Origin: Saccoglossus kowalevskii
Lineage: Eukaryota; Hemichordata; Enteropneusta; Harrimaniidae
DNA: 39,830 bases
NCBI RefSeq assembly: GCF_000003605.2
Contig: NW_003108579.1
Span: 313,441 to 353,270, forward strand
Direction: 5' to 3'
Shown here in pieces: positions 1,479 through 37,400 of this stretch. Position 1 is the stretch's first letter, and each line of letters opens with the position of its first letter. The notes beneath the pieces are model-generated. The model saw nothing but the letters and a program-made list of their open reading frames with translations, was not told where the DNA came from and ran no database searches. Made by a program: the position numbers and the translations under genes.

Positions 1479-4400
1479 CTGTAAATATAAAATACTGGGC
1501 TATATACACCTTTCCTATAAATTGCGCCCATCTAGTGACAAAGCGCCTCCATGACGTAAATGGTTGACGCGCAGACCGTTCAAAGCGTCGACATAATTTT
1601 TATCTGTAGTCATCCATTCGCCAATGAATATTATATTTTTAGAAAATGTCACCACATTTTAGTTAAACGACTACACAATTAATCACAGTTGTCGACTGGA
1701 GACATTGCCCTTACCCATATACGTCATTATGACGTCATAGAGCTACTCCGTCACTAGAGGGCGTGCCCTATAGAAACCATTATTACATAATCATTATTAC
1801 ACACACACATATGTGGTCTAGCGCAGGATGTCAACACTCACCTCATGTGTTCACACTCCTTTAATTCTTACCACATTCTCAGGAAGCGATTTTGCGATAT
1901 ATGTTATGAAAATAATATTGAAGTACTTAAATACTTGAAAACTCAACTTATGCAAGTCATTTTTTAAGCCATGCTATTGTGAACAGCTATTTTAGATGTA
2001 GACTCAACGCTATACAATGGTAATGTCAATGAATGTGCGAGCGTTATTCTGTAATTCCATAGCTATTACAATACATACGATTATTTTCAAGACCTAAAAT
2101 TTATGCTATCAAGTCATTTGGTCCAAATCGAACAATAGTGGAATTTTATAATATCTGTCTTCAAATTTATTGCGACTTGGGAAAAAGGGCTGTAACTTGG
2201 AAACGTTTGTGTGAAACACTACGTACCTTCTGCTGTGGTGTTTGAGGTGGTGGTGGCAACAGTAGTTGTCGTTGCAGTTGGATCAACGTCTGTGAATATA
2301 ATTGAATTTGAAGAAGGTACTGATTAATCTGATGAAAATGCATTTTTTAAATAAAAGACTGCGTTCTAAGGGTTAATTATTTGGATTACGAAAAGTCATT
2401 AATGAAAGTAAATAGCAACCTGAAGGTAGCGAACGATCAGTGAGGATGCATTTATTTTAATTAGTCTCTGAATATTAATTAATCAACAAATACCTATTGT
2501 AATGCATATTATAGAAAACATGTGCGTGCATTTGTTATTACTCTAACATTACGTGGAAACATCACAACTGTTTTGCCCCATCATTGCCTTGTCTGTATGT
2601 TGGCTTCAATAAAACAGCACAACTTAGTGAAATAAAATCATAGAAAAACAGCCTCTAGCTTGAAAACAAATGCCAACTTAAGATTGATTCCCTTTCTGTT
2701 TCACTCTTGTTGACGAGATAGTCTTATCTACAGAATGTGATCAATATGATTTTCGAGATCACTAAACTTATTAATTAAAGTTAAAGCGCGGTGGTCGTCG
2801 CGCAGCGCGTGTTCGAATTTCTTGTAAATAAACAATGTATTTTACACGCCTTGTATACGTCGCTATGAGTCCCATATCGAACTGGACGCGGCGCGTCGGC
2901 CACCGCCCTTTAATCAAACATTGTTGGTAGAATGTCATATTCAACTAACCATCGCACAAGGTTCCCCGCCATCCGTAAGAGCACTGACAATAACAAGACG
3001 TGGTGTTAGCAACAATATTACCATTTTTACACCAATCCGGCACGGAGCAGTCTGGAAAATAACAATAATCAACTTACAAGGCATTATTCCTCGCGTGCGC
3101 CCGCTATTGAAAAAGCGCACTGTGACGCAAAAATGTACATATTATGAGACATACTACGTATACGAGTTCTGTACCAACTATATACTTACCAAATTCGCAT
3201 AAACTTATCCTCGTACCCGACCAAGTACATTTGTTTGCTTGGAATGCGAAATCTGCAGTTTGGCTGAATAACACAAAATATAATATTTTCAAGTTTGAGA
3301 TGTTATTGTTATTGGTCAAAGGCGGTCACATGATCATTTGATGAATATTCAATGTATAATATTGTGGATTCCTTGCCTCGGGTTTTAATTGTGTGTTACT
3401 GACATCTGATGTCATAATACTTTGATTATTGACTATCGAAGACTAATTTTGATTTTAATCCAAGACGTTTCCATTTGGCTCACATTTTTCACCTTACTTA
3501 TTGCCAATTGTTTTGTTTAAAATAATAATACAGTTATTTATATAACTAAAATCAAGTTATAGTTCTAAATCAGGGAACAACAATAAGCTGGTTGCAATTA
3601 CAATGTAGTATAAATGATCATTCAGCGTCCTCATGCGTCGAAAATATTATAATATTATAAATTCAACACTGGAGAAAGAAAATGCAATTTTAACAATGTT
3701 GTATATATACAACAAAAGACAAAATAGTGTGCCATTTTAAGTACGCTGTGACTGTTAAGACACCCGTAATGCCTATTACAAAACAATCTTGGTATTTAAC
3801 GCCATGCCTATTTCTGGTAGCAGGGCTTTCTAATAGACCATTTTCCGTACACTGCGAGAATCACGCGTTATGCGTGAAATCGAACGTAAAAACAAGACAA
3901 ACAAAGGTCATAGCGTCGTAGTCGCGTCAAACATCGCGTGGGATTCGACAAACGCGAAAGTATTTCGGGGACATTTCCATGCTTAAAGGCCCAATTCACT
4001 TGCCCTGGGCAAGTGTGAATTGGAGGTGTGGCTATTCTAATGCATGGTGTTAATCACTTGCGTAGCCTATGATGCATCCTGTTTCAGCGGTCCAACATCA
4101 CATGACTTTGATTGACAGTAGTAATTATTCAAGATTAGTCGCGCATCCCTTTCCCCGGTTCATGTTCTTTACTTTTATCCGCCAAAATCTCAGCTCGTAC
4201 ATTATTTATTGTCATAAATATTACACACAGTCACTGCTGTGATATTCATAGTCACATGCATCCACTTTGGCACGACATAATTGACCTGTAAGTTCGAGAA
4301 AACACGTTTTTACCGGAGCTTGGCTGGAGCTGTTTACTACAGCTTGACAAGCAAGGAAATGATCCCTATTGTTTAGGAGCGTATTTATAGTATACCTGGG

Positions 4401-7400
4401 CCTTTAATAATGTGCTGTCCACATTTAATGATGGGCAATTTCGATTAAGTAAGGGTATTCGGAAGCCATATTCCTCTGTCGAAGATCGGCCGATCAATGT
4501 AAGCTGCGAAATAAAGAAATTCTAGTTCAAAATCAAATCGTTCGATTTTTGCGGCAGACGTTCGACGCGCGTGTTTCATGCATCTCGCGAGATCTCGCAA
4601 TTGTACGGAAAATCACCTATTTCACGAATGCCAAAAGTATCATAGACACAACAAATAATAATAACACACACGTGGCGCGAGCGTGTGTGACAAGCGTTCC
4701 AACAGTTTACACAACTACACAATGGCCGTGTAATACTCTTGCATGAAAAGTATTCCCATGTCAACGAAATGATCACGCTATTTTGTTCCTGGTTGTAGAA
4801 TTGCTTTGCAATAGTTTTCTATTTCATCACAGTAGGGTGGTTACTTACAGTAGCGCGACACAGTCATTTGTCTCATCAACAATCCCATTCCATTGGAAGT
4901 ATTCCTGGATCCCATCATCATTTACCCATTCATCGACAATCTTCTGTATCCCAATATACACCCTAGGGTCCGCTAGATAAACGCTTTCAAGGAAACTCGC
5001 TACAGCAATGTGAGTTCCAATGTCTGCTACCTTAGCTAGTCGACCACCTCTTGCTTGGCATTCAGTCCTGGCTTCAAAGCCATTTACGGGCTGAGGGTTG
5101 ACCCAATACATGATGGACGTACTCACTGCAAAGAATAGATTAAATCGTCGTTATCTCTGTCAAGACAGTTGTCGGCCTATTCGGTGATTTGTCTGCCTGA
5201 CCGTCTGTCGTATGCGGGTCTATCTGTCAGCAGGATAACTGAAATGTCTGCAGATAATTTACCATGACATTCTGGCCTAGCCGCTAAAAAGACAAATTAT
5301 TTTGCTAGTTTTTGGATTTAGCTATTCTTTCTATGTAAATGTTCCACAGAGAATTACATTAACACGGTTAGTATTCTGGTCTTCAGTGTATAAAGTAAAT
5401 TATTCTTTCGGTGTCAAAGCATCATCTGTAATTCTTGAATTTGTATGCCTTGTATTTTGTCTGATTGCAGACACCTTTACTAGCTTGTTCTGATAAAAAA
5501 AAGTTGTCATTCGACCAATAAATGAAATTATCTGGCCAATATAGGCTACCGCGATTTGTTATTAATTGTTGCCATTCAGTTGGTACATGCTACTACTCAG
5601 TATGGACTACAGGAAGGCCATTTTGGGGTATTATTTACTGTGCGTCAACCAGTTAAATTATCAAAGACAAAAATCGTAATTCAGTGAGCATCTACTGTCA
5701 GAGGACAGCGTTTGCCACCACCTACACTCCACGGAAGGCAAATTTCAGTTGACATTTCCTCACGAGGGATCTCGCACGTTTTCCGTGTAACGGCGTTCAT
5801 TGCTCGAAACCCCAACATGTTTAAATTCAACGTTACTTCTTCTACTGCGCTTCCACATTCGAGTATATACTGTGTTGTCAAATTTCCCGCACACGAGATT
5901 ATACAGTGAATGTTTTGGGCACATGATTGATAGTACAGATATTTGTCTCATTTGTTTAATATTTAGTTTTATTTTAATTCAGGTTTGGGAATTAACCAAA
6001 TATCACAGTGTGGCATTGTTGACTGGAGCTCGCTGGAAATACGTAAGCATAAAATATAACTTTTTGAAGACGCCATTATAGTAAGTTTACCTCGACAGAA
6101 ATCTCCACTCCATCCATCATGACACCGACATTCACAGGAATCTGCAGTCTCCACGACAACGCCATTTTTACACCAACTTGTATCGCCGACACAATCTGAG
6201 TACGTAGAAAGAAAGAAACAAATGTAGTGATATTTTTTTTTCAAAAGGTCACACAATTAAGAGGGTTATAGAACTGCGCAGCAGCATCATAAAAAGCGAG
6301 CGCTAAACTAAATGAAGGGCAAGGGGTAATTTGCATAATATTTCTACGCCCTCCAACAGAGCTTCCAACGGCCAACGCTAAGTCGTGCATTTCAACCGTG
6401 GTTGTCATCCATAAAATACAGTTTTTTTTGTAAATTTGATCTATTATTAATGAATAACAAATCCACCCATCTACGTCATTATGACGTCGCGTGAGCGCTT
6501 CGTTATTAGGAGCGCGTCTTATGGATTTAAGTCGGGTTTGTCTAAGTATAAGATCAATGGCGAATGGTTGTGAAGCCGTACTGCGCATGCGTGTATTTCA
6601 ATATCGTCGCATGACCGTTATTTGCATGCGCTAGTTTACAGTGACAGTTGATTGATTGATTGTCATACTTGTTTTAACTATTCACGTCTTATATAATGTC
6701 TATTGGGTTCAACATACCGAACTCGCACACGTATTTCCTTTTTGACGTGCAAGACGTTCCACGCCACGTCCAAGCTCCAATGTCGTACCTGCAAGAGATA
6801 TATACACATACTTATATTATTGTACAAATGAAAATGAAATGAAAAGAGTAGGAGTAGTCACACAAAAGAAATCTTTAATTGCTCAATTTGTTGGCTAATT
6901 TCGTGTTCATTTCAGTTTCTAACCTACTTCATGCACGTTTCTATCGGATAGAATTTTGAGTTTCGTTTTCTTGACATTATATACTTCATATCGAATCTAT
7001 CTACATTGCGCATATTTTTTGAAGATGAAGCTAGTAATTAATGAATATCTGAGATATGCAATATATTGTGACCGTTAGGAAATTGTAATGTATCTTTATT
7101 TATCCAAGCCTGGCACTGGCCATATACTTGATTTCTTGTCCAGGAGATTTGGTGCTGCGACTGACGGCTCGCGACCACCCACAGCATTCACATTTGTATT
7201 ATGTATTTACTGTAATTGCACAATCTTTTCAAATTGTTTTGCAGTTCAGAATAACAAAATTTATAACAGTTAATCACCGGGTAGAAAATTAATTTGCCTT
7301 AATATTTCAGTAAGGACTTCTCACTTGACTAATGTTGACGCACGACCTATACAACTGTGTGCATTGGCGCGATTTGCCACACAAAGTGGAGTATTATACG

Positions 7401-10400
7401 ATTTGCCACACAAAGTGGAGTATTGTACGATTTGCCACACAAAGTGGAGTATTATAAATCGAGGTGATGAGTTATTTAATGCTTATATATATATCATGGA
7501 CTACTTGTGTTAAGTTATGTGACGAGATTTATTCGTTTAGCTTACGATTGTTTAACATTTCCAAATAACCGATGCGATAAATCAACAGGCTTTACTACAT
7601 TTGCTATGCTAAATTAATATTAATATATACTTTCGTCAGCCGCCACCAAAGAGCAAAACGTCGAATTATGAAATTACATTATTACTATAGGAACTCAGAA
7701 CTAAATGTGTCACACATTTGTACTGTTATTCCTGAATTAGATATTTTAATGTACTGATGGTAAAGAAGTTATATATTTTAGGAATAACCACCCCACAGGC
7801 GGTTATTTTAGAATTTTAGCCACTTTTATCAATATACACACATACGATAATATCTGTGTCCATTTCAGTTGACAGAAGTATTTAAACCTACTTTGTTTTA
7901 TTGAGAGTTGGGGCCTACTTCTGAAACAAGACAGCTTCATATATCGTCTATTTGACCACGTTTGGTATCATTTAAAAACTTACTTCATGAACGCGCATTG
8001 TTCGTCGTGAGGTTGAGCGGATTTCCATGCCATGAACGCGCTCTGTTGAACATTTTCCACAGACATCCATTTGCCGTTTTCCATATGAAGCCCAGAGTAC
8101 CAATTGTTTAAACCAATAGACATAGCGAAGCTGGTGACGCTGTCAAACATTTCCTGTGACTGAGTCTGAGCCAACCGTCCTCCGAATAATGCGCAGTCAG
8201 ATTCAGCGTCCGCATAGATGTTCAGAGCGCGTGATGCAAAATACTTCAGAGCTGGTGCTGGGTCCGGTTCTGAAAAAGTGAAAACAATTGTGTGAAAGTT
8301 TTAAGATTTTAATTCAACATTTGAATATTATTCCGTCATTAGACTATATATGGAGATACAAAACAAAGCACATCGCGTCGTTGGATTCACTATACGTAGA
8401 GGTAAGTAAATACAGCCCATAAATCCACAGGTAATATTTTCGATAGAAGCGTTATGAATGTCCTGTACAATTCACAGATCATTTGCGCGACTGAAAGTGT
8501 TTAAACAAACGGTGTTTTCAACAGTCACGAAAGTAAAGAAACAATTGCACTCTCCGTAAGCAAATCTTTTGACTCCCACTGTGAAAGTAAATAGCTGTAT
8601 TATTGCTGCTTTCATGCGTGTAACGATGGCGTTGCTACCCTTTAGCGAGCCTAGGATAGCTTGACCATGTCACGTGACAGTGGCTGTTTGTCAAGTGCGT
8701 GATTCAGATCACGCGAGATCTCGCAAACTAAGGAAAATGGCTTATTGGTCATCAGGAAAATTCTTTTCCATGGGGTATACGCTTATATAAAAGGTAGTGA
8801 ATGATGTAGCATTTAGCATGACTAGCAACTTTTAGAGAATGTCTAAATCACAGATAATTTCGAGCTAATTTTTCCAACCTTAAAGCGGGAGAGTCGACAC
8901 CTGTGCATGCGTCAGATGGCCATAGCGTGTCATTGTTTACAAACAAGCGTCTACCCATGAGCCTTTGCGTTTTTAGCCTGCATCGTTATCGTCACTTGGG
9001 ACTCAATTCCCACGCGTGCGCAAGTGAGGACCCTCCCGCTTTAACAGAAAACATTTGTACCTCCTGACGTGATGCAAGCAAATTGTTGATAGTATTTTTG
9101 AACTAAACCTTTGGATCACGTTATGCTGATTATTGTCATGTTTTTGACAATGGCACAATTGTAAAATTTAATGAAATTATTACTGGCTGGCAAAGCGAGC
9201 AACTCTTGACAATAGTAAACAAGCATGTTGCTTTTCAATTAAGAATCTAATTTTCACTAAACAAACAGTACAAAGAAGCAAAATTAGTTCAGCTGTATAT
9301 AACTGTGAACGAATACTTTAATTTACTTTGTAATTTGATACATTTCTGCATTTTTCTTCCAATAAATTCAATTTAATTTCAAAGTGAAAATATATACGTG
9401 ACTGTGTTATTGGTATGAATGTTTTCTCAACTATTTTTATACAGAGTCAACAGAGATAATAATACTATAGTTCGTTAAAGTACTTTTACGCGTGAACACT
9501 ACTGTCGGTGTTGTACTACTTACCCTTACAGAACGTTCCCTTCCAACCTATATCACACACACAGCTGCATGTATACCCGCTATCGTTTGTAACAACTTGT
9601 CCATTGGTACACCAATTCGTCGTCTCAATACACTCTATGAAGACATTAATGCTTTAGTGTTAGTTGATGATTTCATTATTAAATGTGAATATTGGCTGCG
9701 TGAAATTTGTGCTGGTATATCTCATCCCCCTGACATCCGGGACAGTCAGACGATACCAAGCAATAGAAGTGTACTTTTCGACACGCAAAAGTAAGAGTGA
9801 ACCTTTTAAAAGCCATTAGGGTTTACATCTTGCACATCAAACCCTTGGCGACATTAATTAAGCATAACAAAGATTTTTCTTTTACATTATGAGTTGCATA
9901 AAACAGTCACAGAAAGCAATCACACTCACCAAATTCGCAAAGATGATATATTTCCCAACTGGCAGTACAGTTCTCACGTTCCCACAAATAACCGTCAGTA
10001 GACCTGCATTGAAACGTAATTATTACTCATTTTAATGAATATAAAGAACATCCATCATCATCCACAAAAGTGCCATGTCTATAACCATGCAAAATACAGC
10101 GGCGACATTGTGAATGTTAAAATACTAGAATTAGAATATTCATGAATGACACTTTTCAAACCGTTAATATATTCCACCACATTGCTTCAAATATGTATAA
10201 CACTATGTACGTGTGTAAAGTATCAACTGCCTTCTGTTTCGTATACACTTTTGGTTTCAATTTCAGTTATTTTTTATAAATACATTTATTAGAACCGCAA
10301 TTTATCGAATAATACTTATGCAATATTTCATACCTAAAAACAGCACAATCCAGCCAATCAAATTCTTCAGAATATTTCCAGTTAGAATATTCTAGAATCT

Positions 10401-13400
10401 CACCCGAGTCATATCCCCAAACATCATTAATTCGTTGAAGTCTAAAAAACACCTTTCCGCTCAATGAACTGACACCAACTGTATTCATATATGACACAGC
10501 ACGTTCCTGGGTGGCCTGACTTGTGACTGTAGCGAGGCGCCCACCATACATTTGACACTCTAAGCTGGCATTGTCATATGAAATAGTGTGTTCAGAAAGC
10601 CAGAATGCAACGTTTGAAGAAGGTGGTTCGAGCGTAGAAGCTGTAGTAGTTGTTGTTGTTGGTGGTGGTGGAGGGGCTGTTGTAGAAGTTGTAGTAGGGG
10701 CAGTTGTAGTTGTTGAAGGTTCGGTAGTAGGAGGGGCTGTTGTAGAAGTTGTAGTAGGGGCAGTTGTAGTTGTAGTTGCTGGAGGTTCGGTAGTAGGAGG
10801 CGCTGTCGTAGAAGTTGTAGTAGGGGCAGTTGTGGTTGTAGTTGTTGGAGATTCGGTAGTAGGAGGCGCTGTCGTAGAAGTTGTAGTAGGGGCAGTTGTG
10901 GTTGTAGTTGTTGGAGATTCGGTAGTAGGAGGCGCTGTCGTAGAAGTTGTAGTAGGGGCAGTTGTGGTTGTAGTTGTTGGAGATTCGGTAGTAGGAGGCG
11001 CTGTTGTAGAAGTTGTAGTAGGGGCAGCTGTGGCTGTAGTTGTTGGAGGTTCGGTAGTAAAATGTACTGTTGTGGAAGGTATAGGAGCTGTAGTTGTTGT
11101 TGGAAAGAGAGTAGTGGTCGTTGTTGCTGTTGGATCAGGCACTGCAAAGAGAAAAACATAACATTAAACCGAGAAATATTATCGTGACCATATATTTGCT
11201 GTTTGTATATCCTAGCCTAGCATTAGAATCTGGGAAAGGTTGAAACATTACTCAACAATGTTTCATTTCGGACTGAAGAGAACAATGTATATCATATTGT
11301 AGAATAGCACAGATTTAGTTTGTCATTATGCCAAATTTGCAATAGTTTGGAAATAAACAGAAGCGATTAAATTTTGTCATTATACTTCTGTTAAATTCGG
11401 TATTTTTATAAAGTATTTTTTTCATAAAAAAATCTCTTTTTGTTAAGCAAGTAACATTGATATGCATGGCGTTTTACACTGGCTGTCTAACTTTGTGAAT
11501 ACCTACTGTCACAGAAGGTTCCCATCCAGCCGTACGAGCACTGGCAGGTACAAAAGTCGTCTATTTGTATCTCCCCATTTGCACACCATTGTGTATCCAC
11601 TAAGCAGTCTTTAAAATGAAATAAAATAAATAAATGAAACAATATTATCCACATAGTTACACTGGTACAACAGTGTACAGAATTGTCCATTGCGAGCAAG
11701 CCACTCCTCTGTTTAAAAGTACGGTGTAAGCTGCATTTCTTTAATGTAGATAAACTTGTTTGAATTGTGTAATTCTTCTCCACAATTCTGACGTTTGTGA
11801 TTGTTTAAATTTATGTTGATATTTCTATTGATTGGATAGATCGAAAGAGAAAACACGTGTTATTAGTATTTAGATTTGATTTCATACAGTGATAATAGTA
11901 GAAACCTTGAATGTTTTGAATGCATTACAGCAATACATAGACGTAACAATCAACACTAAACATAGACAGATAAACCCAATTAACATTTCAAAGTAAAATG
12001 CAAAATAACGACAATTCATGAACATGTACAATTCCCATATTCTCGTGGGCGAACATTCGGGCATTTTCACCGCCTGGCAACCACCACAGAGAAAATAAAG
12101 GCCAACAACTCTCAGAAAACGGTACTTTGGAATGGTTATTGAGACTCCCCCGAACAGTGTAACAAGATTAGCCATGCGTTTGCAACATATATATAAATTT
12201 GGTTGTTCTAGATAACTTCAAAGTTGAGTTTGTGTTGTTTTCTCGAATTTAGCTGTTTTCACCGGCTCATCGACCGGCGTTCCAAAGCAGCTCGCGCAAA
12301 GCCTATAGAAACACGTGGTACAGTGGTGTGCGCCTTAGCAACGCGTAACGTCTTGTGACGTAGCTCCACCGCGATGATACCGCGCTCACTGTCCACATAT
12401 GTAGTAACCTTGGTATTTGAAATGACTATTTGAAGGTCAAAAAAAGTGTCGTGTTTATATTGGATATACGTAGAACATTGTGTACTTGCGTTCTGGCAAC
12501 ACTACTTGTCGCCAGTAAATAATGAAAGTAGCTTGGAAATTGTCTGAGGTGTCTTAGAAATTATCTGTGTTCTTAAAATAATAATAATAAAAAAAAAATG
12601 TTCACGTCTTACCAAATTCACATAAACTTAGCCGTCCGGCAGCCCACGTGCAAACTTGTTCATTCCATGCCATATCTGGGCCATACCTAATAAAACAAAA
12701 AAACAGTCGTACAAATAATAATAATACAACATCTTTAACAAATTAAATATGGCAAAATACAGCTCTTCGTCTTCAAAATAAAGGCAGTCATTTTGAACTA
12801 ACAACCGAGTGTCTAGCATGTATACGTGCGCCTCCGAGATCACACAACATAAGCACGAACATTTTACCTTTCTGTCAATAATGCTGTTATAGATATTAAG
12901 ACGTATAAAGCAAATACTCACTTTAGCATAACACAAGTTTTGGTACCATCACCCACACTCAATCCATTGAGAAACGACTGCGGACCGTCATTATTATACC
13001 ACTCTGTGTTGTTCAGCTGTAAATCGAAATAGAGTCTCGGATCTGACAGAGTTTGTCCATCGAGGAAGGTACCAATATACATCAGTTGGTCAAAACTGTC
13101 TATTTTGGCTAGCCGACCGCCTTTGTCTTGGCACACGGTTCGAGCTGTTATTGCATTAACAGATACAGGGTTCACCCAATAAGCAATATTCTTGTTTGCT
13201 GGAATTGAAACAGTAATGTAGTTACTTGATTGCAGTTATGTACACACAAAAGGAAACAAACTATATTGAATAATATTTTGAATATTCTTCTTAGATGTAT
13301 GTTCTTTGGTTAATTTATTACTGTTTCCCTGATTTGGCCTTTGTGCTCATACATTCGTGCTTGTGAATTTCCTGTCAGTCTTGCGATCCTGGTCTTGTAG

Positions 13401-16400
13401 TATTAGTTTCTCCTACTTCTGCAAGTATTGTTGTTCTCACCACTTCGTTCCCAACTCTCAATTTTGTGTTTCGTCATTGGCGAAAATGCAGTTTATTTAT
13501 GCGATGTAAAATATATTATCCCGCATACACATGTCACAATGGAAATCAATTTAGTTTGACCAATCAGCTTCAACCACATGTGCAACAATCACTGGCTACA
13601 TTGTCTCAGACTTTCTATGAGTCAGTGTGCGTTTATCCTTGACATAAATATACTCTGATTTATTTAATTAAAAATACGAAATGTACTATGTGCCTCCCAA
13701 CTGTCGAACTGCACCGTTTGTCGATGTAACTAGCGTTTTCACGCCGGGCAGCCTTCGGTAGCTAAGTGTTCCACGCAATAATACAATTCTCACCTTTGCA
13801 GAATTCTCCGACCCATCCGCTGTGGCACTCACAAACACAACCCGCGGTCTCGTGCGCAACGACGTCACCTTGGAAACACCAACTATCACCATCGTCACAC
13901 TCTAAAGATATAGTAGAAATAGTCATTACCAAACAAAACAACTAACTTTCTTTGAACGGAAAGAATTACCAATAATTCCGGTGTCTTGTCCAATCAATGG
14001 ATCCATTGGCCAACAAAAAAGTACACATCTTCGCATAATGCCATTTATGGTAAGATATAGATCAATTAATTAATCGTTTTTTAAATCAGATTATATATAG
14101 GTCAAAAACAGCCCTATATATTTTTGCAATATTTGCCTATTCAAAATTGAATCACAATGTTCATTGATTTGTTATGTACAGCCATAGTTCCACGCTAACA
14201 TTTTTAAGCAAATTGGACTAACATTGTCATTCCAAAAGAATATTCGAATTACACAGATCATACTTTCAACCGTTCTTGTAACGTTTTTTTAAAATAAATG
14301 ATTGTTTTAAGTAATTCAAAATAACACAGAATAAACCATCAGTCAATATATCAGTTCGAAATACGGAATAATATTGTAGCGTATCATACTCTGCAACTAA
14401 TAGCACAATCTTTATATTGTCCGGGAGTACATTCACTGAAAAAAGATGCATTTGGGATAACGACGTAATTCAATTCGTCAATGTGATTCTAAGGCAAGTA
14501 CATATATATTTTTCTGCACCATTCACATTTTTTTTTTCGTGGACACACATTTTATCTGAAATAATGTTACAAATTACGTTCGTATGTGTTCTCTTATATA
14601 AAAGATAATAATAGCGTAGTCTGCTCATTATGGAAACACCGTATCTTGGTTGTTTGGTATTACGTGCAGTCCTGGTCATTAGTTTCAATGCATAAACACA
14701 CTAGACATTTGGACGGATCATTCAAACAACAAACCTTTCATGCTTTAAAAATACACCTATTAGCGCGTTTTCTCTACGCGTAGCTGAAATACACTCACAA
14801 CACTGTCAATAAATTCTCACACTACTTCTGCAAGATTATTTAATTTTTTGACAATTCAGAATATTTTAATTGAAATAAAGACTCCGCACTACCCATCACT
14901 GCTTCATAAAACGGCTCAAACGGGATGTGCGCTTAAACAACAGGCTCGAATTCGTCCCGTTATAACGCAATAATGAGAATTTTTCTCTCTCTGAATATCC
15001 ATATATCTATACATTGCCATAGTTGCACGCACAGTAACTTGCGAGACTGGCTTATTACAACAAAGTTTGACCGTCCAGATTTCTCTAGTCACAACCATAA
15101 AATAACAACAAGATTTAACAAGAGGGGGTTATGTTTTCCATACAGGATATGTTGGACGAAAATAAAACAATCAATTTAAATACTGTAAATTGGCCAACTC
15201 ACCAAACTGGCATACATAATACTTCAGCGAAGTACAACCCGCACCATACCACTCCCACATTCCATTAGAACTCCTAGAATAAGTGAGTTTGTGTTAGAAA
15301 ATGATGAATGATCTTTTTATCTTGAGTCGCAACATACATTCTGTGAACAGCTCTTTGTACGAAGTGAATAGACTATGATTTCATTATACCAGCATCGTGA
15401 TAAATCTCATTGTATCAACCTCATAAACTTAGGCGCTGCATTGCAAATTATGTTTACCCTATCCACACATCGTGATTCTGATTTCTCTTCTCGGCGCCTG
15501 TCTAGCTTGTAGAGGACAGTGTCGATCTCGTAAGCAGAAAGGGGGAGGAGTGATACTCCCAGTTCACCAGGAATAGCCGTTAGTTTACGCATCTTTCATC
15601 TAGTCACTCACCGCTATTTTTTGGATGGTAAGTGCTCACGAGTTAAATCTCGCGTGTTTTATTTTAAATAGTGGTGCCCCCCCCACACATTACATATATT
15701 GGATATCAGAAAAAAAAAATAGTTATGAAACACTGATTCTGAGAGCCCCATGAGTTGAACCCCAATCCTGCAGTTAAACTAACACTGACGCGCCAAGTAA
15801 CGCGGCAACCAATCCAAAACTAGTGCCACATTAAGTCAGTGGTTACAGGGAAGAATTGAGTATACAAGACTTACTTCAGGTACGCACAGTCTCTCAAGTT
15901 CGGGTGTGAGCCTCGCCATGCACTGAAACCACTTTGCAAAGTGCCGTCTTCATATATCCAATTTGACCCCGACAGTGCCAGTCCAAACCACACATCTGTC
16001 TGACCAGTGGACTGAATAAAGTTCACAAGATTCTGAAACATTTCCGGGGACTGTATTCGCGCCAAGGTTCCACCACTGGCGCCACATACTGACGAGGCAG
16101 TGACGTAATCTGCTGGTATGTCTGACACTGAATACCCAAGTGCCGGTGGTGATTCAGGTTCTACAAGAGTTGACATTATCGCATAATTAATTGTACGCTG
16201 TTACGTCACAGCATCTTGTACCAATTAGAATTCACCGCATATGCACATGCAAGATGTTTGATTATTCTCATACAATATGATTGTACATTTGGCAAAAGAT
16301 TTTGCAACTCAGGACTTACCAAGCGAATCTTAAAAAGCACCCTCTCATAACTTAACTTAACTTACCCATACAGAATGGCCCCTTCCAGTTAGCGCTGCAT

Positions 16401-25400: not shown

Positions 25401-28400
25401 GAAGCAATAGATAGCTTTCGGAATTCTCGGCCCGTATTGAAACCGCTAATTTTTAAGAATATTTATATAGAAGTTTTATGAATTATTATATAGAAGTTTT
25501 CATTGGGGCATTTTAAAATCTGTCATTGATGACCACGTGACCTAGAGCCATTTATGTGAGTGGCTCAGCTCATTTACTTAGAACATACCTAACCGCTAAA
25601 TGCGTGACGTCATTGTTAATTGCGCCGGTGAAATCACCTGCCATTGAAGTTTATATAAAACAATAAAAATCAACAAAATAATTTGTGGTGTGGAAAATCT
25701 ATTTTGTTTCAGACTACGCGTGACAAGTCATGTACATCAGCATTTCTTTCAAGGACGGCGTTACGGGCAGATATTTTAGAATATCGATCGAAATCGTCAG
25801 AGTTGTCTCTACTCATACTCGGCGAAAAATACTTATATCATCAAACTTACGAGCAGTGGTTGTTGTTGGCATGGTCGTTGTCGTCGATTCTGCAAAAAAA
25901 AAGACAATCAAATTACGGTATTGAGAATGTAGCTTAGTAGCCACGTAAACACGCGGTGACAGTAGAACTATTCCAACGAAGGTGATAATAGAAAATAATT
26001 GTACTCACCCGAACAAAATGTGCCTTGCCAGTAGGCATGACAATTACAAAAACATGTATCACCGTCACTTACAATATCACCATGGCGACACCATTCGCTC
26101 CGTGTGCAATCTGATGAGAGAAACAACGGGTAAAGCATCAGTTTGAAAGTATCACAGCCCAGTAGTGTGATAACATCGAACAACTTTAATATGTAATTTA
26201 TAAAATAAACGCTATTTTCGAAGAAACTATTTTATACTGTTTGAATATTAGTGCGAACAAATCCCATGTTATTCTACAATACACTGCCTAGTGATCCATG
26301 CTACATAACGGATTATGCAAATTCAGTTATGATTATTGATGAACTATGACATGACACGCATGTAACAGCAAATTAAATGTGTTAGATCGGAACAAATTTA
26401 TAATTTTTAGTATATAATACTCTCCAGAGGAAACGCTTCGAAAAGTTTTTGAAGGTTTAATACCTGTAAGTAAACTGGCAGAATTTTGAGAAAAAAAATA
26501 ACAGTAAAGAGAATGTAAAAGAGGAAAACAAAAAAGTGCATACAAAATGTGTCTTCTGCCATCTGTAAATGAAACGTTTGCAATAACAAAAAATCCATCC
26601 TCTGATATTTCAAAATGAGAGACCCTTGTACAGTATTATTCAAATAGGCGACTTCCGTTGTCTGTGCATTTTTCCGTCATTTGAAAATAGGACATTTCTA
26701 AACATTATTTTTTTTATTAACTAACCTCAGATAAAAACAATATGGACGCTATGAACTGCATTCCTTCCATTCATTCTTACGTCACAGAAGCGCCTCGTCG
26801 ATAGAGGGCGCAACTATAATACTGGAGTCAATGCGAAGCTTCATCATACAATATTGTGTCTGATTAGCTACCAAACGCTAATTCCAGACCAATCAGAAAA
26901 CAGCTTGTTTGTAGACAGTTTTTTTCAACGCATCAAATTTAGATTCGACTGAACTGTTATATTGCACTTACCGAATTCACATAAACTCAGCCTACCACCT
27001 GACCATGTACACACCGTAAACACCCATTTATACACACCGTTTTTCAGTCTGTTATGTGCAAATTAAATACGTAATATGGTAATGTATGTTTATGATTATG
27101 ACCTGTCCCGAACTAAACACGCTGTACTTGGAGCATATAATTCTAAGTATTCGGTCTAAGTATTCGCTCTAAGTGTCGATAACTTTTTTTGTGCATGTGC
27201 ATTAGTGGGTTGAATTGCTCGACGAATGAGTGTGCTACAAAAGCAGCACTTTAGTTTTTACGATAACTCATTAGGTCTTCAACTTACAGTATCGAATAAA
27301 AATACTAGTAAATGTCATGTACATACATACCACGTGCTTATAACACAAACGTTTGCATCATGAGCGAGAACATGAATTCTGTAATATTGTTTTTTTGTAT
27401 ACATCATTTTTTATGACCACATCAGAATGTTTTTTTTCGTCAACCGAAATTTTGCTTTTGCAGCACATTCGTTCGATAAAGTGATTGTTACCATGACCTT
27501 TTGCACACATGTGTACGCGTAATAGAAAATGTAATCGTTACGAATGCGTGTGCTACCAATGGAACAATAATTCTATTTTATGATAAATCGCGATCTATTG
27601 CATTCATTATAATGTCATGTGATCAAACAACCGTATTAAATTTACATATTTACATCCACATTCTATCTTTAATAATTCAAATAGAATACAGCGGCTAGCA
27701 CACGGGAAAGCGTCTGCTCTTTCCAAAATATATATCTAGTGAATATCGTTTTAAAAGTCTTGTGATAATAAACATTTCTCGATAAAACAAATGTTAAAGA
27801 ATATTATTTTACTTTAAATCCAGGCAAATATGCTTACTTCTTATTAATACTAGTTTAAAAATTCAATAGGGACGAAAAAAATGAATATTTAGTATAGTTA
27901 TTTGACACTTCATATTGATAAATGCATTGGACTAAGATTTAGCATGAACTGATTACGTTGTCATGTAGCTTGCGTCTGAGTATTCATTTGATCAAGCAAT
28001 TCATTCTCTAATACGCATGCGCACTGGTTGTTGTCGTACGTACAAAAACAATCACTGCACATGCGTATTACTTGTTTTCATTTTTCATCTAACGAATACC
28101 GTCGTGTGTCCTACAAACGAAACCTTTCAATTTATGATAAATTATATTTCGATTTGGTATCGAACAACATTAAAAATATTAATTTGTTCGTCCATATTGC
28201 ATATTTAAGCAAATAACTTTTCAACATGTGTTTCCCGTGAAAGTTCTTTGTTGGAGAATGTATTTTAGACAGTGAGAACTTTTACCTAAAATAAATACAA
28301 TATTTACATGATTTTTATTGGGAAACTATGCTAATAGATATACTGCAGTATGGAGAAAAAACTATACTCACCTAAGAATGCCACAATCGTATCCATCTGG

Positions 28401-31400
28401 TTGGGCTGTAGGCCAGTTGTCCCATGTCTGAACACTGTCACTATTATACCACGTCCCATTCACCATAAATATGTCAAAATAAATCCGTGGATCTGGCAAA
28501 ACTTGAGAGTTAAGAAATGTTTCAACTGATTCTTGTGTTCCTGCATCTGGTATCGGAGCTAGTCGCCCACCTAGAGCGCTGCATTGATCATTGGCCGACT
28601 CGAAGTTGACTGATTCAGGATTGACCCATAGCATGAGACCAGCACGTTCTTCAAGAAAAAATAATCACTTAATTAAGAGTAATTACTCAATTATGCAATA
28701 TTCATAACAAGATGTGCAAGAATTGACATTTATTATATTCGTAAAATCTCCATTTGTAATTATAAAACCTCCTATTGTTTTTTTGTTAATTCTATATTTG
28801 TATGTAATCCTCTTGGCTTGGCTCAACACCCATTGAGAGGTGCTGCCTTGTTCATGTTGGAATAAACACAGTCAATGACGAAGAAGGCCCCTTACGCCCA
28901 CATATCGCATACGAACATTAATCTAAGAATATGAACCATAAACATGCCATTTGTAAATATAAATAAATATGAATTATTGCACCTAAATATATTTAATGAT
29001 TTATGAAAAACTTGATCCTTCATATTGGTCCCAATTACTATATCAGAAATTTTATAAAAAACAGTATTTGATTAGCTTCAGCGTTCAATGTGACAAATGA
29101 TCAGCGCCGAAGAGACACTCTGAGATTGATGAAAGCAGTGACTGGCTGTGTAATCGTTCATCATATCGAATACATAAATCCCGTAAGAAATTGTTTTTGT
29201 TATTCATGGAAACCCACAATTCAAAACAATGAACGAACCAACGACCATTTACGTCGTAGCAGGGATTCGTCGATAGAGGGCGCTGTATATAGAAATAATA
29301 TATTAATTGCATAATAGTTAAAACTACGCACACATTTTATGAAAATATAGCCAGCTTGATACTGCTAACTAACCTGAGCAAAATTGTCCACTCCAGCTGT
29401 AGTCACATTTGCATTCACATCCCAACTCATCACTGATGACTTCGCCATTGACACACCACAACGCTCCTTCTACACATTCTGAAAAAAACAACAAATTTAG
29501 TTTTGAGGTCAATAAACTTTAACTGAATCGGCGTGTCTTGTAATTTTGTCTATACACTGTATTTTTTCGTTTTTACACGGTAACATTTCCAACTTTAAAG
29601 ACGACCTTTCCGTCTTTTCTGTTTTATGAACTTTTGAGGCAACAGGGTATTATTTTTGCTGGAAAAAATGATGACAACTGAACAACAATAAACAAAAAGA
29701 AAACGGTAATGGTCAAAAACTATCAAACCTATCCATCTGTGAAAAGAATTTCGTCTAAAGTTTGTGAAAAAAATTCTATTCGGACTGTATTTGTTTTAGA
29801 ATCGATAACGAAGTAACATTAATAACAAAAGGTAATAGCATCTCCACTGTCATTCTTGCTTTAAAACTAAATACACCATTGTGAATAATACACCATGAAC
29901 GTTCTCACCTTTCAGATTGTACAACTTGTGTAGACATTTCCGAATTCTCAATCATTGTTTCAAACTTTTCAAACTTTGCTAGTTTTTTAGACAACATTTC
30001 CAACTTATCAATGAATGTTTTTAACTTTTGGAACAAATTCTCCGCCTTTCGATGCAAGTATCCAAAAAGCATACAGACAAATTTGCCGTCTTCCCAATTT
30101 TTATTTTGAACTTTTCAAACAACTTTCGAGCCTGAAAAAATAAAATCTCCAAGGTTTGCACACGACATTGCTGACTTCTCAAAGTTTAGATGACATTTCG
30201 ACTTCGTAATTAGAAAATTTCGAACTTAATGATCAACTTTGCCGCCTTCTGAAGCAACTTTGCCAACTCTACAAACGACTGTTCCTTCTCCTCACATTAT
30301 GTTTCGAATCTATCAATAATGTATCTTTTCCAAATCAACTTTCGCAAATTTTGCGGACGACTTTTTTGTCCTTCCAAATCAACTTTGCAGACGATTGTTT
30401 TATATTCCCAAACTAGTATTCAAACTTTTCAAACAACGTCCTCGTCTTGCAAGGCATGTTACCTTAACAAGTGTATTTTGAAAAAACAAGCTTTTCGCAC
30501 TTAAGTTTGTTAGGCGATTTTTTCATTCTCTCAATTAACTAATGATTTTTCGGTCATTTCAAACAAGGTTTTCATCTTCGAAATCAACTTTCCGAACTTT
30601 GTGGACGATTTTTTAGTACTTTCAGACCATTTTTTGAAAACAATTCTTGCACTTCACAGGAACACTTGCTGAAGACTTTTTCATCATATTTATGTCGACC
30701 TTTTCAAACTAGTTTCCCGCTTCAGCATCATAGCAGACGTATCCCGTGTTATCAATTTATATGTTGTACTTTTTAAACAAATTACCCACCTTCCAAAACA
30801 AAGTTTTCAAGTTTTTATACTTCTTTCACGCATAGTCTCTATAGTAAACTTGGCAGATGTTTCCCGTCTTTCCAAAGCAACTTCCAGTCTTTTCAATTAA
30901 TTATTTGAAACATTCAAACAATCTTTCCGCTTTATAAGGCAACGTATGTAGCTTTGCAAGCGACTGTTCCTTCCTCTCAGTTTATTCCACAAACTTATAT
31001 TTTAAACTTAATAAACTACTTCTCCGTCTTGTAAACTTTCGAAGAAACTTCCTCGTCTTCCAAATCAACTTTCTTGAAATTGAAGAAGACTGTTCGGTCT
31101 TCTAATTTATATTTTGAAATTCTCAAACAACCTTTAAAAGCGACTTTCCTAATTTTGCAGACGACTTTTCCGTTTTATCAGTTTATTTTTCAAACCTTTA
31201 GAATTGTTTTTCCTCTTTCCAACTTTGCAGACAACTCTGTTCAATTTAGTTTAATTTGTAACATATTTGAACAAACACAATTTAATTGAATATTGATTAT
31301 TTTCAAATATAATTTCTTCTGTATTCACGTCCGGGAATTTGTTGAAACTCTAACTCCAATTCATAAACAACTTACCGAACTCGCACATATACTTCGTAGA

Positions 31401-34400
31401 ACCTACTGCGCATTCCCGCCCGTACATCATCCACTCGTTGTCCACAAATCTGCCAACATGCATAAAGAATAAACAAAACAAAGTGGTTATGCTTATGTGG
31501 GAATAACTCTCACAAAACATGTACAAAGGAATTCAAAGCTGTCATTTGAGGATAAAAGTTTATCCAAATTGGAAATCATAATCAATATACTTGATTGCAA
31601 TGTTGATGTTGAGCAAGATGTAATAAAATAAAACGATTCCGAGTTTCGAAGGTAGTGTAGTGGAATGTCTTTGAGGTTAGATTAACTACCTTTATACCAC
31701 ATTTATCATCTTATTACAAATTTGCTTTTTGTATGTGCTCGACTGTCAGCAAAGTTGTTCAATGGAGATAAACATATTTCTGTCAGTCTCCTGTAAATCG
31801 TCTCCCGTTTTCTTTTCTATTTTTTGCTTTTCTGAGATATTACGTGATTTCCATCTAGGATCGTTTATAAACACAGCAAAAAACACCCTATCGACATTTA
31901 CATTTGGCAATCAATTCAACATATGTTTACCAGTATACAAAACAGGTCATATATGACGGATGCTTTTAAAGTTTTTTTTTTACTTTATTTTAAAATAGGC
32001 CACAATACAATATAATCAGTATAATTCTTATGCTAAGGTATCAAGCCATATCACGTGACGGTTATCAAATTCTTGTTGTAAACACAAATTCTTTATATAT
32101 CGGCAGTTTAGAATGACATTGATGCTCTCAAAAGGTGTTGTATGCAAATACTTATCATCGAATGTGAATTTCTATTTTGTGTGAAAAATATGACTCGAAG
32201 GAAGCAATCATGTGTTGAAAATTCAATCAGTAGCGTCAACGCAACCTGGGACAATTAGTATATAAATCAAACTGGGAAATGGAACATTAGGACAGCTCCG
32301 GTTTTCTTAAATGTATCATGCGTATGTGAATTACTATACATATGTACAAAACAACTTGGAATGCATTAATTATTAATATTTATGGTAATAACTAATTGAA
32401 GCCCGATAATATCCAAACATGGGTTAAAAACTTTTTCCTTAATCACACTTTGCTTTCTATACTATGTCGAAATGAAGTTGATGTCAAGCCGTTTTGCCAC
32501 CTATGTCGATGAATACTACATGGTTTACTTTGATCAAGACAATTACCTGATGTCAGCGCATTCGTAGTCTAGTGGTTGTTCGCCGTACCATGACGTAAAC
32601 GCCCCTTGAAATTGGTTTCCATCTGCCATCCACGCATCCCCAACCTTGTACAGTCCCACAATTACTTCGCTCTCGAGATTAGCTGCAGCAAAGTCGCCGA
32701 CGTTTTGAAACATTTCCGGTGATAGCACTGGCGATAATTTGGCACCGAGGGAAGAGCAGTTTGCCTGTGCTTCATAAAAAGTGGCTGTATCTGTCGACAT
32801 ACTGTACCACGAATGGACAGGTGTTTCCGGTTCTGTGTGAATAGAGAAATATACACCGCATAAATACAACACATTGCCTCTCAAAGCAAACACGTTCAAT
32901 ACTTGACTATCTCGACAAGAGACAACTCAAATGACCTGCTTCCGATCAAATACGCCACTCCGGAAACTAAGACTGAAACTTACATAGTCTATTGTGCAAC
33001 CATACAATCACCACGCATATAAAGTGACGTGTGCAAACATCAGAAGACATATATCATCAAGGAGAGGCGATTCCATTTCATGATCATAGAGGCAAGGAGG
33101 TGGTCAGAAAAAGGAGGAAAGATACTACAAAATATAGTTTTTTTTTTCTTTGCTTAGTTTTTTATTTCAATTGTTTCTTTCGAAGATGAAGCAATTTCTT
33201 CTGCTTTCTTTTGTTTAATATGTGTGATATTTGCACAAATCCATTTGTCCCATCACCAAGAGAGGTACGAGACTCACTGAATTAACTATAATGTTTCCAT
33301 TATCAGAGGTAATTCAGAATTTTGCTTGTCTAAATATTGTCACATGTCCCACATGTCACGGAGCAAATTCCAGTCAAAGGTTAAAACAGTTTGTATAAAA
33401 TTCAAATTAAGCCCCGCTGAGCATGTATATGCGCATATACGCAATGCATTATGGTACAATGCACCACTTTATACAGAATGGACACATTTTTATTGAACTG
33501 AAAAGTCACTAAATTAGAATCCAAAGATCATTATCCGTGCCGTTTCGGACTTTTTGTTAAATTATAATGGAATTAACAAATAATAATAAAGGTAGATATT
33601 GAAAATCTACCTTTAATAATATTATAGCCCTGTCAAAAATAAAATAACTGGCATTATGGATTATTTCGAAGAATGCATATTACTCACGTAGACAGAATGG
33701 TCCCTTCCATCCGATGTCACATATACATGCACATGTGTTGCCGTTCTCGTCCATATCAATTGCGCCGTTATGGCACCAGGAAGCACTCAGAACGCATTCT
33801 GCAAAAAAAAACAAAAATATATTTAAACAACCGAATACAGATGAGAACGGACATTGGTAGACGTGGATATGAGTGGCGTATTTCACATGGGAGTACACTA
33901 TCTTGAGCTTATAAACGGTATGCCGAGTACATTGTAGCGTTTGTAAGACCTAAATAGCCTGTTTGAAACAGATAACCAACCTCACTCGCTTACTCACTCA
34001 CTCACCCACACCCACACACCCACACCCACACACACACACTCACACACTCACGATAAACATGATAATTATTCCTCGATTGTTACTCACCAAATTCGCAAAC
34101 ATGGCGAGTGTTTAAATACGTTGAGCAGTCCACACTCTCCCACTTGTAGCCGCTGTCGACACTGTAAATTAGATAAAAAGTATGTGTAAATTTACTGTTT
34201 TCTGTCAAAGGAATATATAAAAACGATCGTATTTTGTAATCACAGCCCCTTAAGCTTCTCCATACACTATACATGGTCACATAGATTAAAAGTGATAAGG
34301 GGATTTTCCAAATCAAATATTTGAAGTTCGGAGAAACATACAAACGAAGGAACGAGCTAGCTAAAGGAATAAAGTTCGGTGGTTTGTATTTTTTGAGAGT

Positions 34401-37400
34401 CGTGATTTTTATAGAAGGATTATTTGTGAATCGTGAATGCGTGATTCTATTTTTTGTGAAGAGAAAAATTAGCATACCCATAGGCCAAACTCATTGATTT
34501 GTTTGTACAACAAATGAGTGTTTTTATTTGTTTTGATAACATGCATGTAGTCTTCAACGTTTTCAAGGATGTTATATTCAAATAATTTGATCATTCAAAG
34601 TTATCTGTTATACTAGATACTAGAAGAGCGCATTGGATTGTGGGAAAATCAATGTTTATCAACACAAATGTCGTTTTGATGACTGATATGCAGTGTGTTT
34701 TTTTAAAAAAGAAAGAAATATCGCTTACTCCATAACTGCACAGTTGTGTTCAGCGGTGGGTTCGGCAAGCCAGTTGCTAAACTCACGAATCTCCTGCCCG
34801 TCAGGAAACTGCCATACGCCATCGGTTTGTCCAAGACTGAAGTAAACCTTCTTGGAAGCCAGCGGAATCCCAATTTCATTTAGAAAAGTGTTAACCAGTG
34901 TCTGTGTCTGTGCGTCCCCGACCTTTGCAAGGCGTCCGCCATAACTGTTACACATGTTGTTAGCTGCCTCCCGATTGTACGTCGGCTGGGGTACCCAGTA
35001 CGTCATCGTCACAGGCGACACTGAAATATGCAATTTATTTCAAGTCAGTTGTGCCTATATTTGTATGATATGCGCGTGCGCCATAGATTATTTTGTCTAT
35101 ATGCAAATGACCTGAATATATGGCGCGAATAGGCGGGTGGTTGTGGTAATTGCTGAATTTAGCCACCATATTGAAGAAGTGTTCGACGGCAAATTATTCA
35201 CTTTATTGAGTTTATTTAAATAGTGACTGTGTACACCTACCAGTCACACATACACTGACAAGCAAATGATTAGTTAATTAAACAGTTAAATTGACTAAAG
35301 GGCACATTGCCATTGCAGAATTTAAAGCGAGAGGGTCGTCACCTGCGCACGCGCGGGAATTGAGACCCAAGCGACGATAAAAACACACGCTAAAAATGCA
35401 AAGATTCATGGGTAGACGCTTGTTTGTAAACAATGACACGCTATGGCCATCTACCACACGCACAGGTGACGACTCCCCCTTTTTAAACAGTTCTTACATA
35501 TTTGACAGACTGCTCCAATAAACTCAGCGCAGCCGTAATCTAGCCATTTGTAACCGTTTGATCGACTGTAAAATATAAATACAAATAAGTGAGTTAATTA
35601 TTAACATACAGCCACTCAAACAAAATATGCAAAGTTACCTTATTCGCAAATGGCCGCTGAAATCTCGTTGGAAGCGCGAGAGACCCGCGACTTGCTTTTG
35701 CGCCCTCTCTGACAAAACAGCGTTCCATTACCGTTATCGCATCTACTGTTCCAAATGACCACGCTCATATTTTAGGAAGCACACCCACTTTTGCAAAACC
35801 ACGCCCAAATTATATCTCGATTTTCAATTAACAGTTAACCAAATTTCGCGTTATGGGCAACACAAATCGCTTATGTTGTTTAACGTCCACATTTAGTAAC
35901 TCGAACTTTAATTAACAGTTGGCCGAACTTCGAGTTAAGATCAACATAAAGTTGTTGTTTTGTTCAACGTCTTACGTTTCCCGTGACTCGAAGTTCGGTT
36001 GAGAGTTAATTAAAATTCGATTTTATAAATTTGAACGTTAAACAAAAGAACAAATGTATGTAGTCCGTAACTCGGAGTTCTTTTAACTGTTAATTGAACA
36101 TCGAATTACAATTTGGGCGTGGTTTCGGAAATGTGGGCGTGGTCATTTGTATCTAGTTCCAAATATTCTACTGTTCCATTTCCATAACCAACATAAAAAT
36201 AAATGTGATGACAGTAGGGAATTTTTCTCTGTGTTTTGCGCATTGCATCACGGGAAAAAAGTCCACATTTGCATAACACAATCGAAGAACTAATTGACGT
36301 TCTACTAGTGTACAGGTATTAATTTGTTAGAGGTTGTCCAAAATATGTTGAAATATTTGAGTAAGTGCAAATGTCAATCTTATTAAAACTTAGATAGAGT
36401 TCACTGGGTTTTATTCTCTAAAAAAAAAAACGTTAAATAAAAACAAGCTCACCATAGTAATGAGACATAATAAAAGTCGCACAATAAGTTAACGGGTTTT
36501 AAGTGGACAGAAAAATAAGTGGAAATGATCTGAACTTGGTCTCATAACTGAACTGACACAGGAAAAATAGAATGCTGAATAAAAAAATATTTTCCCGGAA
36601 AAAATAGCGGTTATATGGGTAAATAGTTTCTGTTTCGTATTCTACGTCGAATGAGGGCTGTAAGAATTGTATTCCCATCATTACTGGTATGTTTGGGGGT
36701 TATTATATTGATCAACCAATATTCTATACATTTTGAGAAGTTGGTGTGTTCCAGTGTCGTGTACAAATGGACAACATAAGTTCGAATAGAGATAACAAAT
36801 TTAACACCAAAAAGATGTGAATACTGCATTTGTATAATCTTATTCGGTAAAAATACACGACACACAGGATGGTAAATATGACTTTATTTCTATGATGGTT
36901 GAATAGACGATTCATTGCACTTTCGTTTGCCATTCTATTAAAACACCATGCACTACGTATGGTTTGTACTGTCTAACGTCAAACATGTCGACCCCGGAAG
37001 CTCAAAAGTCACGTGGTTAGTGTCGAATCGAACAGAGGTACTGGGAATTGAATACTATTTCGGGAGTGAGGAAATACATTTCTGTGGCTCTCTACTCCCG
37101 ACGACATCTCGGTGGCCATTTGAGTTTTAAAGGAGTCTTATATATCACAACACACGATGACCAACTCAGGGTGCAGCCTAACTCACCTCAATACCGCACA
37201 CTCGTGTGCTACGTCATTGGGCTCCCCAGAAACCCAGTAAAAGAACACAGGTGGGTCTCCATTTGACTTCCATCGGTACCCGGTTGTTATGTCCCGACTT
37301 AAAGCGAAGTAAAATTTATCATGTTGGGTATAAGATTCAAGAAAGCTCTCAAGGTGGTTCTGGGTTTCAATATTTCTTATTTCGGCAAGTGTACCTCCGT

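Follow-up and report, generated by a model that had tools for sequence, protein, structure and literature searches.

A gene on the minus strand of a 39,830-nucleotide stretch of the Saccoglossus kowalevskii genome (contig NW_003108579.1, C285:313441-353270; the whole stretch is called the window) very probably grew by tandem duplication of a six-domain block, and its product was probably extracellular and modular. The duplicated block would have comprised an alpha C-type-lectin-like domain (CTLD), an EGF domain, a beta CTLD, an EGF domain, a gamma CTLD and a third EGF domain. Four complete in-register copies of it were found behind one N-type CTLD, and the inter-domain borders were all in phase 1. 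Because all whole-domain borders share this phase, any run of EGF-CTLD modules could be copied without a frame break.

Gene structure and the three CTLD classes

The exon scan of the window yielded 39 coding exons, which can be read as a single gene with 6,793 coding bases. Of these exons, 14 encode CTLD first halves, 13 encode second halves and 12 encode one EGF domain each; 13 of the 14 CTLDs are thus complete within the window. All 39 exons had AG/GT borders and none held a stop codon. The phases were 1 to 2 for CTLD first halves, 2 to 1 for second halves and 1 to 1 for EGF exons in 39/39 exons; the scan was restricted to these phases, which had been read beforehand from raw borders. The domain order was N, then alpha-beta-gamma four times, then a 14th CTLD, x5. 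CTLDs of triads 1 to 4 are labelled a, b or g (alpha, beta, gamma) with the triad number. EGF alternated with CTLD from alpha 1 onward. A search for an EGF exon between N and alpha 1 found none, and no second half of x5 was found within the window. Four ATGs upstream of N passed a hydrophobicity filter for a signal-peptide exon; none was convincing.

A preliminary description, made from the letters of the window, had listed 12 CTLD first-half exons. All 12 were recovered on the minus strand where it had put them, each bounded by AG/GT and free of stop codons. It had also sorted them into three classes recurring in fixed order, which was borne out. The best-scoring partner was of the same class for 12/12 first halves, and the lag-3 contrast was reached by 3/20,000 label permutations. 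Mean pair scores were 160, 157 and 146 at distances 3, 6 and 9, against 59-89 at distances 1, 2, 4, 5, 7, 8 and 10 and 114 at distance 11 (one pair). A larger unit of six CTLDs (lag 6) was rejected, since scores at distances 3 and 6 were alike. Gap-blind identity of first halves was 36.5% within classes and 23.8% between them (2/20,000 permutations). Among second halves, the best partner was of the same class in 11/12 cases by score and 9/12 by gap-blind identity (5/20,000 permutations each).

The preliminary description had proposed separate trees as a check. The 16-row first-half tree contained the clades alpha (support 87/88), beta (85/78) and gamma with x5 (85/83). The second-half tree, built on 25 columns, recovered gamma as the sole class forming one clade. 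For the constraint tests, first-half, second-half and EGF alignments of the 12 triad domains were joined; N, x5 and the CTLDs of a further gene on the contig, M (M1 and M2), were excluded. Forcing the three classes as clades cost 0.27 log-likelihood units relative to the free tree (approximately unbiased test, AU, 0.45). Forcing the triads as clades cost 160 units (AU 5e-6) and forcing one scheme of neighbour pairs cost 153 units (AU 2e-5). The grouping of neighbouring CTLDs that had been named as the outcome speaking against duplication of a three-CTLD block was not seen. The constraint tests, the neutral simulation, the gap-blind comparison, the first-half profile scan and the tree and pair-score analyses of the paralog P described below used rows from which the linkers of a3, a4 and b2 had been cut. 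Pair-score permutations and the separate first-half, second-half and EGF trees used untrimmed rows, with a4 taken from 10640.

Exon lengths followed the same order. EGF exons measured 102 bases before a2, a3, a4 and x5, 111 bases before b1-b4, and 105, 108, 108 and 105 bases before g1-g4. When the EGF preceding x5 was assigned to alpha, an order as tight arose in 12/100,000 permutations. The lengths earlier given for beta and gamma positions were as described. A 102-base exon had been placed before every alpha, which is correct for a2, a3 and a4; none precedes alpha 1, and the fourth such exon precedes x5. First-half exon lengths were partly class-ordered, with 277 bases in all four gammas, 286, 301, 286 and 286 in the betas, and 292, 286, 331 and 808 in the alphas. 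Since alpha 1 has no preceding EGF and a 102-base EGF follows every gamma, the repeat is best cut as alpha-EGF111-beta-EGF105/108-gamma-EGF102, four times, with all four copies complete. Measured from start to start (35020, 25297, 17336, 11141 and 1478), the blocks span 9.7, 8.0, 6.2 and 9.7 kb, a slightly wider range than the 6-9 kb first estimated.

The domain x5 follows the fourth copy and occupies the place expected for a fifth alpha, yet it paired with gamma 4 (support 97/94; 98/93 in the tree including P). Forcing it with alpha was 8.0 log-likelihood units worse and was not rejected by the AU test (0.14). In the simplest reading, x5 would be a copy of a single gamma module.

Paralog P, block history and alternative explanations

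A second gene, paralog P, was found on the same contig and strand (C285:64931-59051). Its order was N-alpha-EGF114-beta-EGF105-gamma-EGF108, and no EGF exon was found between its N and alpha, as in the window gene. Its CTLDs are labelled PN, Pa, Pb and Pg. In a 19-row tree of joined halves, clades were formed by the N-type (88/76), alpha (81/65), beta (97/99) and gamma (83/83) CTLDs, a distribution of the four kinds that takes the fewest changes possible. The 20-row first-half tree with P contained the clades alpha (82/88), beta (77/79) and N-type (81/78). That P has the same N-alpha-beta-gamma order and falls into the classes supports the triad as an evolutionary unit. The trees support an age of the three CTLD classes that would predate the split of the window gene and P.

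The domains of P scored best with the 5' part of the window gene. PN scored best with N, Pa with a1 (194; next a3 with 190, a small margin), Pb with b1 (232; next b3 with 212) and Pg with g1 (145; next 131). For the EGFs before Pb and Pg, the best scores were with their counterparts preceding b1 and g1. The EGF that follows Pg was nearest to an EGF of gene M and, within the window, to the EGF after gamma 1. A whole-genome search with b1 (572 Mb and 4,830 contigs in these searches) placed Pb above b2, b3 and b4.

Among the 15 rooted orders that the three classes could share, ((1,(3,4)),2) and (1,(2,(3,4))) fitted best, and triads 3 and 4 were sisters in both. The AU test rejected 5/15 orders with first and second halves, 6/15 with first halves and 7/15 with EGFs included; several other orders therefore remain. 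With P as a fifth copy (15-row sets, with N, x5, M1 and M2 excluded here as in the neutral simulation), ((1,P),(2,(3,4))) was the best of 105 orders, which was not significant. With triads 3 and 4 favoured as the youngest pair, growth would have proceeded toward the 3' end, where a lone gamma module may then have been copied to give x5.

Several observations count against block duplication or narrow its support. In the whole-locus and intron self-comparison (30 pairs with exons masked, 32 without masking), no intron match between triads was found at corresponding places. The comparison returned satellites, a mucin variable number tandem repeat (VNTR), inverted repeats and a small number of short matches. 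Two further matches joined exons, pairing the first halves of g2 and g4 and the second halves of g1 and g4. In this self-comparison, earlier suggested as a check in the form of a dot plot, intron block homology did not appear. The introns cannot be aligned between triads, so that the block copies are visible solely in exons and lengths. Same-class first halves differed at about 63% of sites; together with the unalignable introns, this divergence indicates that the block copies are probably old. The EGF residues did not follow the classes. Gap-blind identity was 45.2% within and 43.3% between classes (1,858/20,000 permutations), and the best gap-blind EGF partner was of the same class in just 4/11 cases. 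The gap-penalised score gave a same-class best partner in 7/11 cases (9/20,000 permutations), which was not taken as residue support because this score includes the length difference. In the EGF tree, beta was the sole class forming one clade, weakly (21/79). The EGF classes of the preliminary description are thus borne out for exon length only, and the EGF lengths of P (114, 105, 108) match those of the window (111, 105/108, 102) just partly.

Further points of this kind came from the trees. Alpha was not one clade in the free trees of the constraint-test and neutral-simulation datasets, and gamma was not one clade in the 20-row first-half tree including P, where Pg was a long branch. The fuller trees also carry long branches for M1, M2 and several EGFs. 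Support for individual classes is moderate and varies by tree. Class-specific invariant columns numbered 7, compared with a mean of 6.1 in the neutral simulation, and 120/300 simulations reached at least 7; they lie within neutral expectation and therefore give no evidence of a functional difference between the classes. The best 14 of the 105 orders with P all survived the AU test, and placing P outside all four triads cost 4.2 units (AU 0.54). Neither a transcript, a signal peptide nor a C-terminus was seen. Finally, x5 suggests a later single-module copy in addition to the block copies.

The resemblance of x5 to one extra gamma module would also fit a history in which EGF-CTLD modules were copied singly throughout and the classes arose by convergence or position-dependent selection. 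Such a history is highly improbable, given the rejection of the triad clades and of the neighbour-pair scheme by 160 and 153 log-likelihood units and the recurrence of the class order in P. A division of the 12 CTLDs over several tandem genes is improbable as well. Other CTLD-EGF genes, P and M, do share the contig and orientation. The introns at the triad borders, from a gamma second half to the next EGF, were 861, 167, 1004 and 138 bases long, however, and none exceeded the longest intra-triad intron (1897 bases). The phases also continue unbroken across the triads, and the only N-type CTLD found inside the window precedes triad 1.

A harder choice concerns the age of the array relative to P. 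It is quite possible that the window gene expanded at a later time, from a one-triad ancestor resembling P, as a position of P outside all triads was only 4.2 units worse and was not rejected. Against this late growth stand the scores of P, whose collinear CTLDs all match triad 1 best, as do two of its three EGFs. These scores would fit a history in which several triads predate the gene split, or one in which P arose as a copy of the 5' end alone. Growth of the window gene by block duplication remains the favoured reading of the array itself.

Exon positions, repeats and related loci

All exons are given in window coordinates on the minus strand, in the order of transcription. The preliminary list began at alpha 1 and had the four triads right; the N CTLD and x5 had been left out. 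The first half of N, with an EPN motif, was located by the exon scan at 37187-37481 and its second half at 35498-35565. In triad 1, the halves of alpha 1 lie at 34729-35020 and 34088-34161, the 111-base EGF exon before beta 1 at 33688-33798, the halves of beta 1 at 32547-32832 and 31376-31449, the 105-base EGF exon before gamma 1 at 29374-29478, and the halves of gamma 1, the first with a QPD motif, at 28372-28648 and 26972-27048. The 102-base EGF exon between gamma 1 and alpha 2 lies at 26009-26110. Triad 2 continues with alpha 2 (25012-25297 and 23670-23740), a 111-base EGF exon (22296-22406), beta 2 (21124-21424 and 20840-20919; the acceptor of the first half may be 21424 or 21418), a 108-base EGF exon (19922-20029) and gamma 2 (19086-19362 and 18083-18156), followed by the 102-base EGF exon in the interval to alpha 3 (17814-17915).

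The first half of alpha 3 (17006-17336) carries a short Thr-rich linker, and the second half of alpha 3 lies at 16611-16684. It is followed by a 111-base EGF exon (16366-16476), beta 3 (15875-16160 and 15203-15273), a 108-base EGF exon (13794-13901), gamma 3 (12922-13198 and 12613-12686) and the 102-base EGF exon in the interval to alpha 4 (11507-11608). The first half of alpha 4 (10334-11141) includes a Thr/Pro mucin-like linker. A coding VNTR at 10670-11059, with a 66-base unit in six copies, encodes this linker before alpha 4. The second half of alpha 4 lies at 9930-10003, and the remainder of triad 4 consists of a 111-base EGF exon (9524-9634), beta 4 (7984-8269 and 6718-6788), a 105-base EGF exon (6091-6195) and gamma 4 (4849-5125 and 3190-3263). 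The 102-base EGF exon at 2950-3051 separates gamma 4 from the first half of x5 (1199-1478), which is gamma-like at the next alpha position.

Three repeats were seen in introns. A minisatellite at 18623-19047, with a 21-base unit in about 20 copies, lies between the two halves of gamma 2. A 165-base element, possibly a mobile element, is present in two inverted copies at 35322-35486 and 8880-9044 that are 86.7% alike. An imperfect palindrome of about 360 bases (73.8%) occupies 35780-36141 in the N CTLD intron.

Gene M shares contig and orientation with the window gene and lies at -13862 to -16697 in window coordinates. The first domain found in it was an N-type CTLD, followed by an EGF, a CTLD that fits none of the classes clearly and a second EGF. 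Genome searches matched a2 (E to 0.001) at at least 13 places, g4 (to 0.01) at at least 10 and b1 (to 0.05) at at least 5. Among these three queries, only a2 had matches outside C285, at least three in number. The first-half profile also matched CTLD loci on C1271, C4732 and C3468, where the surrounding 10-50 kb held no EGF match reaching 15 bits. A Lectin_C genome scan, in which 150 of 480 candidates were scored, showed CTLD clusters on C4110 and C4174. The five Lectin_C matches on C4110 had near-equal scores and were spaced about 8 kb apart, suggesting a recent tandem array.

The mitochondrial contig, C4830, was also read. It comprised 17,037 bases, with TGA coding for Trp and with AGA apparently for Ser, ATA apparently for Ile and AAA apparently for Lys. 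COX1 lay on the strand opposite to COX2 and ND1. Nine COX1 ATA sites aligned with the best PDB match, 7o37_a, corresponded to Ile at five sites, Val at two, Leu at one and Met at one. For AGA, the reading as Ser came from two conserved sites, one in cytochrome b and one in ND1. Such a code is probably hemichordate-like.

Comparison with known proteins and predicted function

The Pfam cut-off for PF00059 Lectin_C (22.6 bits) was passed by a1 (44.2), g1 (25.2), N (34.1) and a2 (29.5), and b1 remained below it with 17.9 bits, so that four of the five spliced CTLDs scanned passed, among 13 complete ones. The four CTLD cysteines, two per half, were present in all 19 complete CTLDs examined, 13 from the window gene, 4 from P and 2 from M, and g2 had one extra cysteine. 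Six cysteine columns were invariant in 12/12 EGFs. Of the 12 EGFs, b2 and g4 were scanned by themselves and a2 together with its CTLD, and none of these three reached the Pfam EGF cut-off. Two matched EGF models below the cut-off, and the third had no listed EGF match.

Members of the mannose receptor family, such as DEC-205/LY75 and MRC2, have tandem CTLDs, many of them without a sugar site. Their N-terminal ricin-B and FNII domains are followed by CTLDs without EGF between them. The alpha 1 sequence had six matches in PDB, which were LY75 and MRC2 chains and a yolk sac IgY receptor (E 3e-9 to 6e-4). The EGF exons between the CTLDs argue against membership in this family. A selectin consists of one CTLD and one EGF followed by CCP domains; the 14 CTLDs and 12 EGFs rule out this identity, and no search for CCP was made. 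Titin, unlike the window gene product, is an intracellular Ig/FN3 filament protein. Its A-band resembles the window gene in having ordered super-repeats in a highly repetitive protein (PMC10665226).

The nearest parallel among the systems compared was complement receptor 1 (CR1/CD35), which, according to PMC6883348, has four long homologous repeats derived from a seven-domain unit. Both proteins thus have four multi-domain super-repeats. The CR1 unit is made of seven SCR domains, whereas here it holds three CTLDs and three EGFs, and the copies are strongly diverged, unlike those of CR1. Grouping by place in the unit rather than with neighbours, as in CR1-type repeats, was found for the CTLDs and not for the EGF residues. 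Domain repeats often expand several domains at a time, for example nebulin by sevens, and many expand in the middle (both PMC1553488). In contrast to nebulin-type repeats, the unit here mixes two domain families, and in contrast to middle expansion the favoured youngest pair, triads 3 and 4, lies toward the 3' end. No CTLD-EGF super-repeat protein was recognised from titles in literature searches, which does not show that none has been published. The gene has an unusual domain combination that seems to have grown in a known way.

A classical Ca2+-dependent sugar-binding lectin is marked by an EPN- or QPD-type motif together with WND. Read by eye in the 19 complete CTLDs, EPN occurred in N only, QPD in g1 only and EPD in PN, M1 and Pa, and WND occurred in none; no CTLD had the motif combination of a classical Ca2+-dependent sugar-binding lectin. 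As most CTLDs lack the classical Ca2+ and sugar motifs, they probably bind proteins, or sugars by other means. The product may be an extended protein with multivalent binding, located at the cell surface or in body fluid, and each triad may repeat a composite of three different CTLD surfaces. A bolder proposal, which we consider unlikely, is that the triad is a tri-specific unit with a distinct contact per class and a fourfold repeat conferring avidity, and that an array of at least two triads predates the family split. If this were true, related genes with differing triad numbers would form a graded receptor set.

The window gene offers a clear case of the block-wise growth of a mosaic protein, with symmetrical phase-1 modules and a class order kept through four copies, and the collinear paralog P serves as an internal reference. 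The mechanism itself is unsurprising; the case would carry the greatest weight if orthologs showed that the number of triads varies between species.

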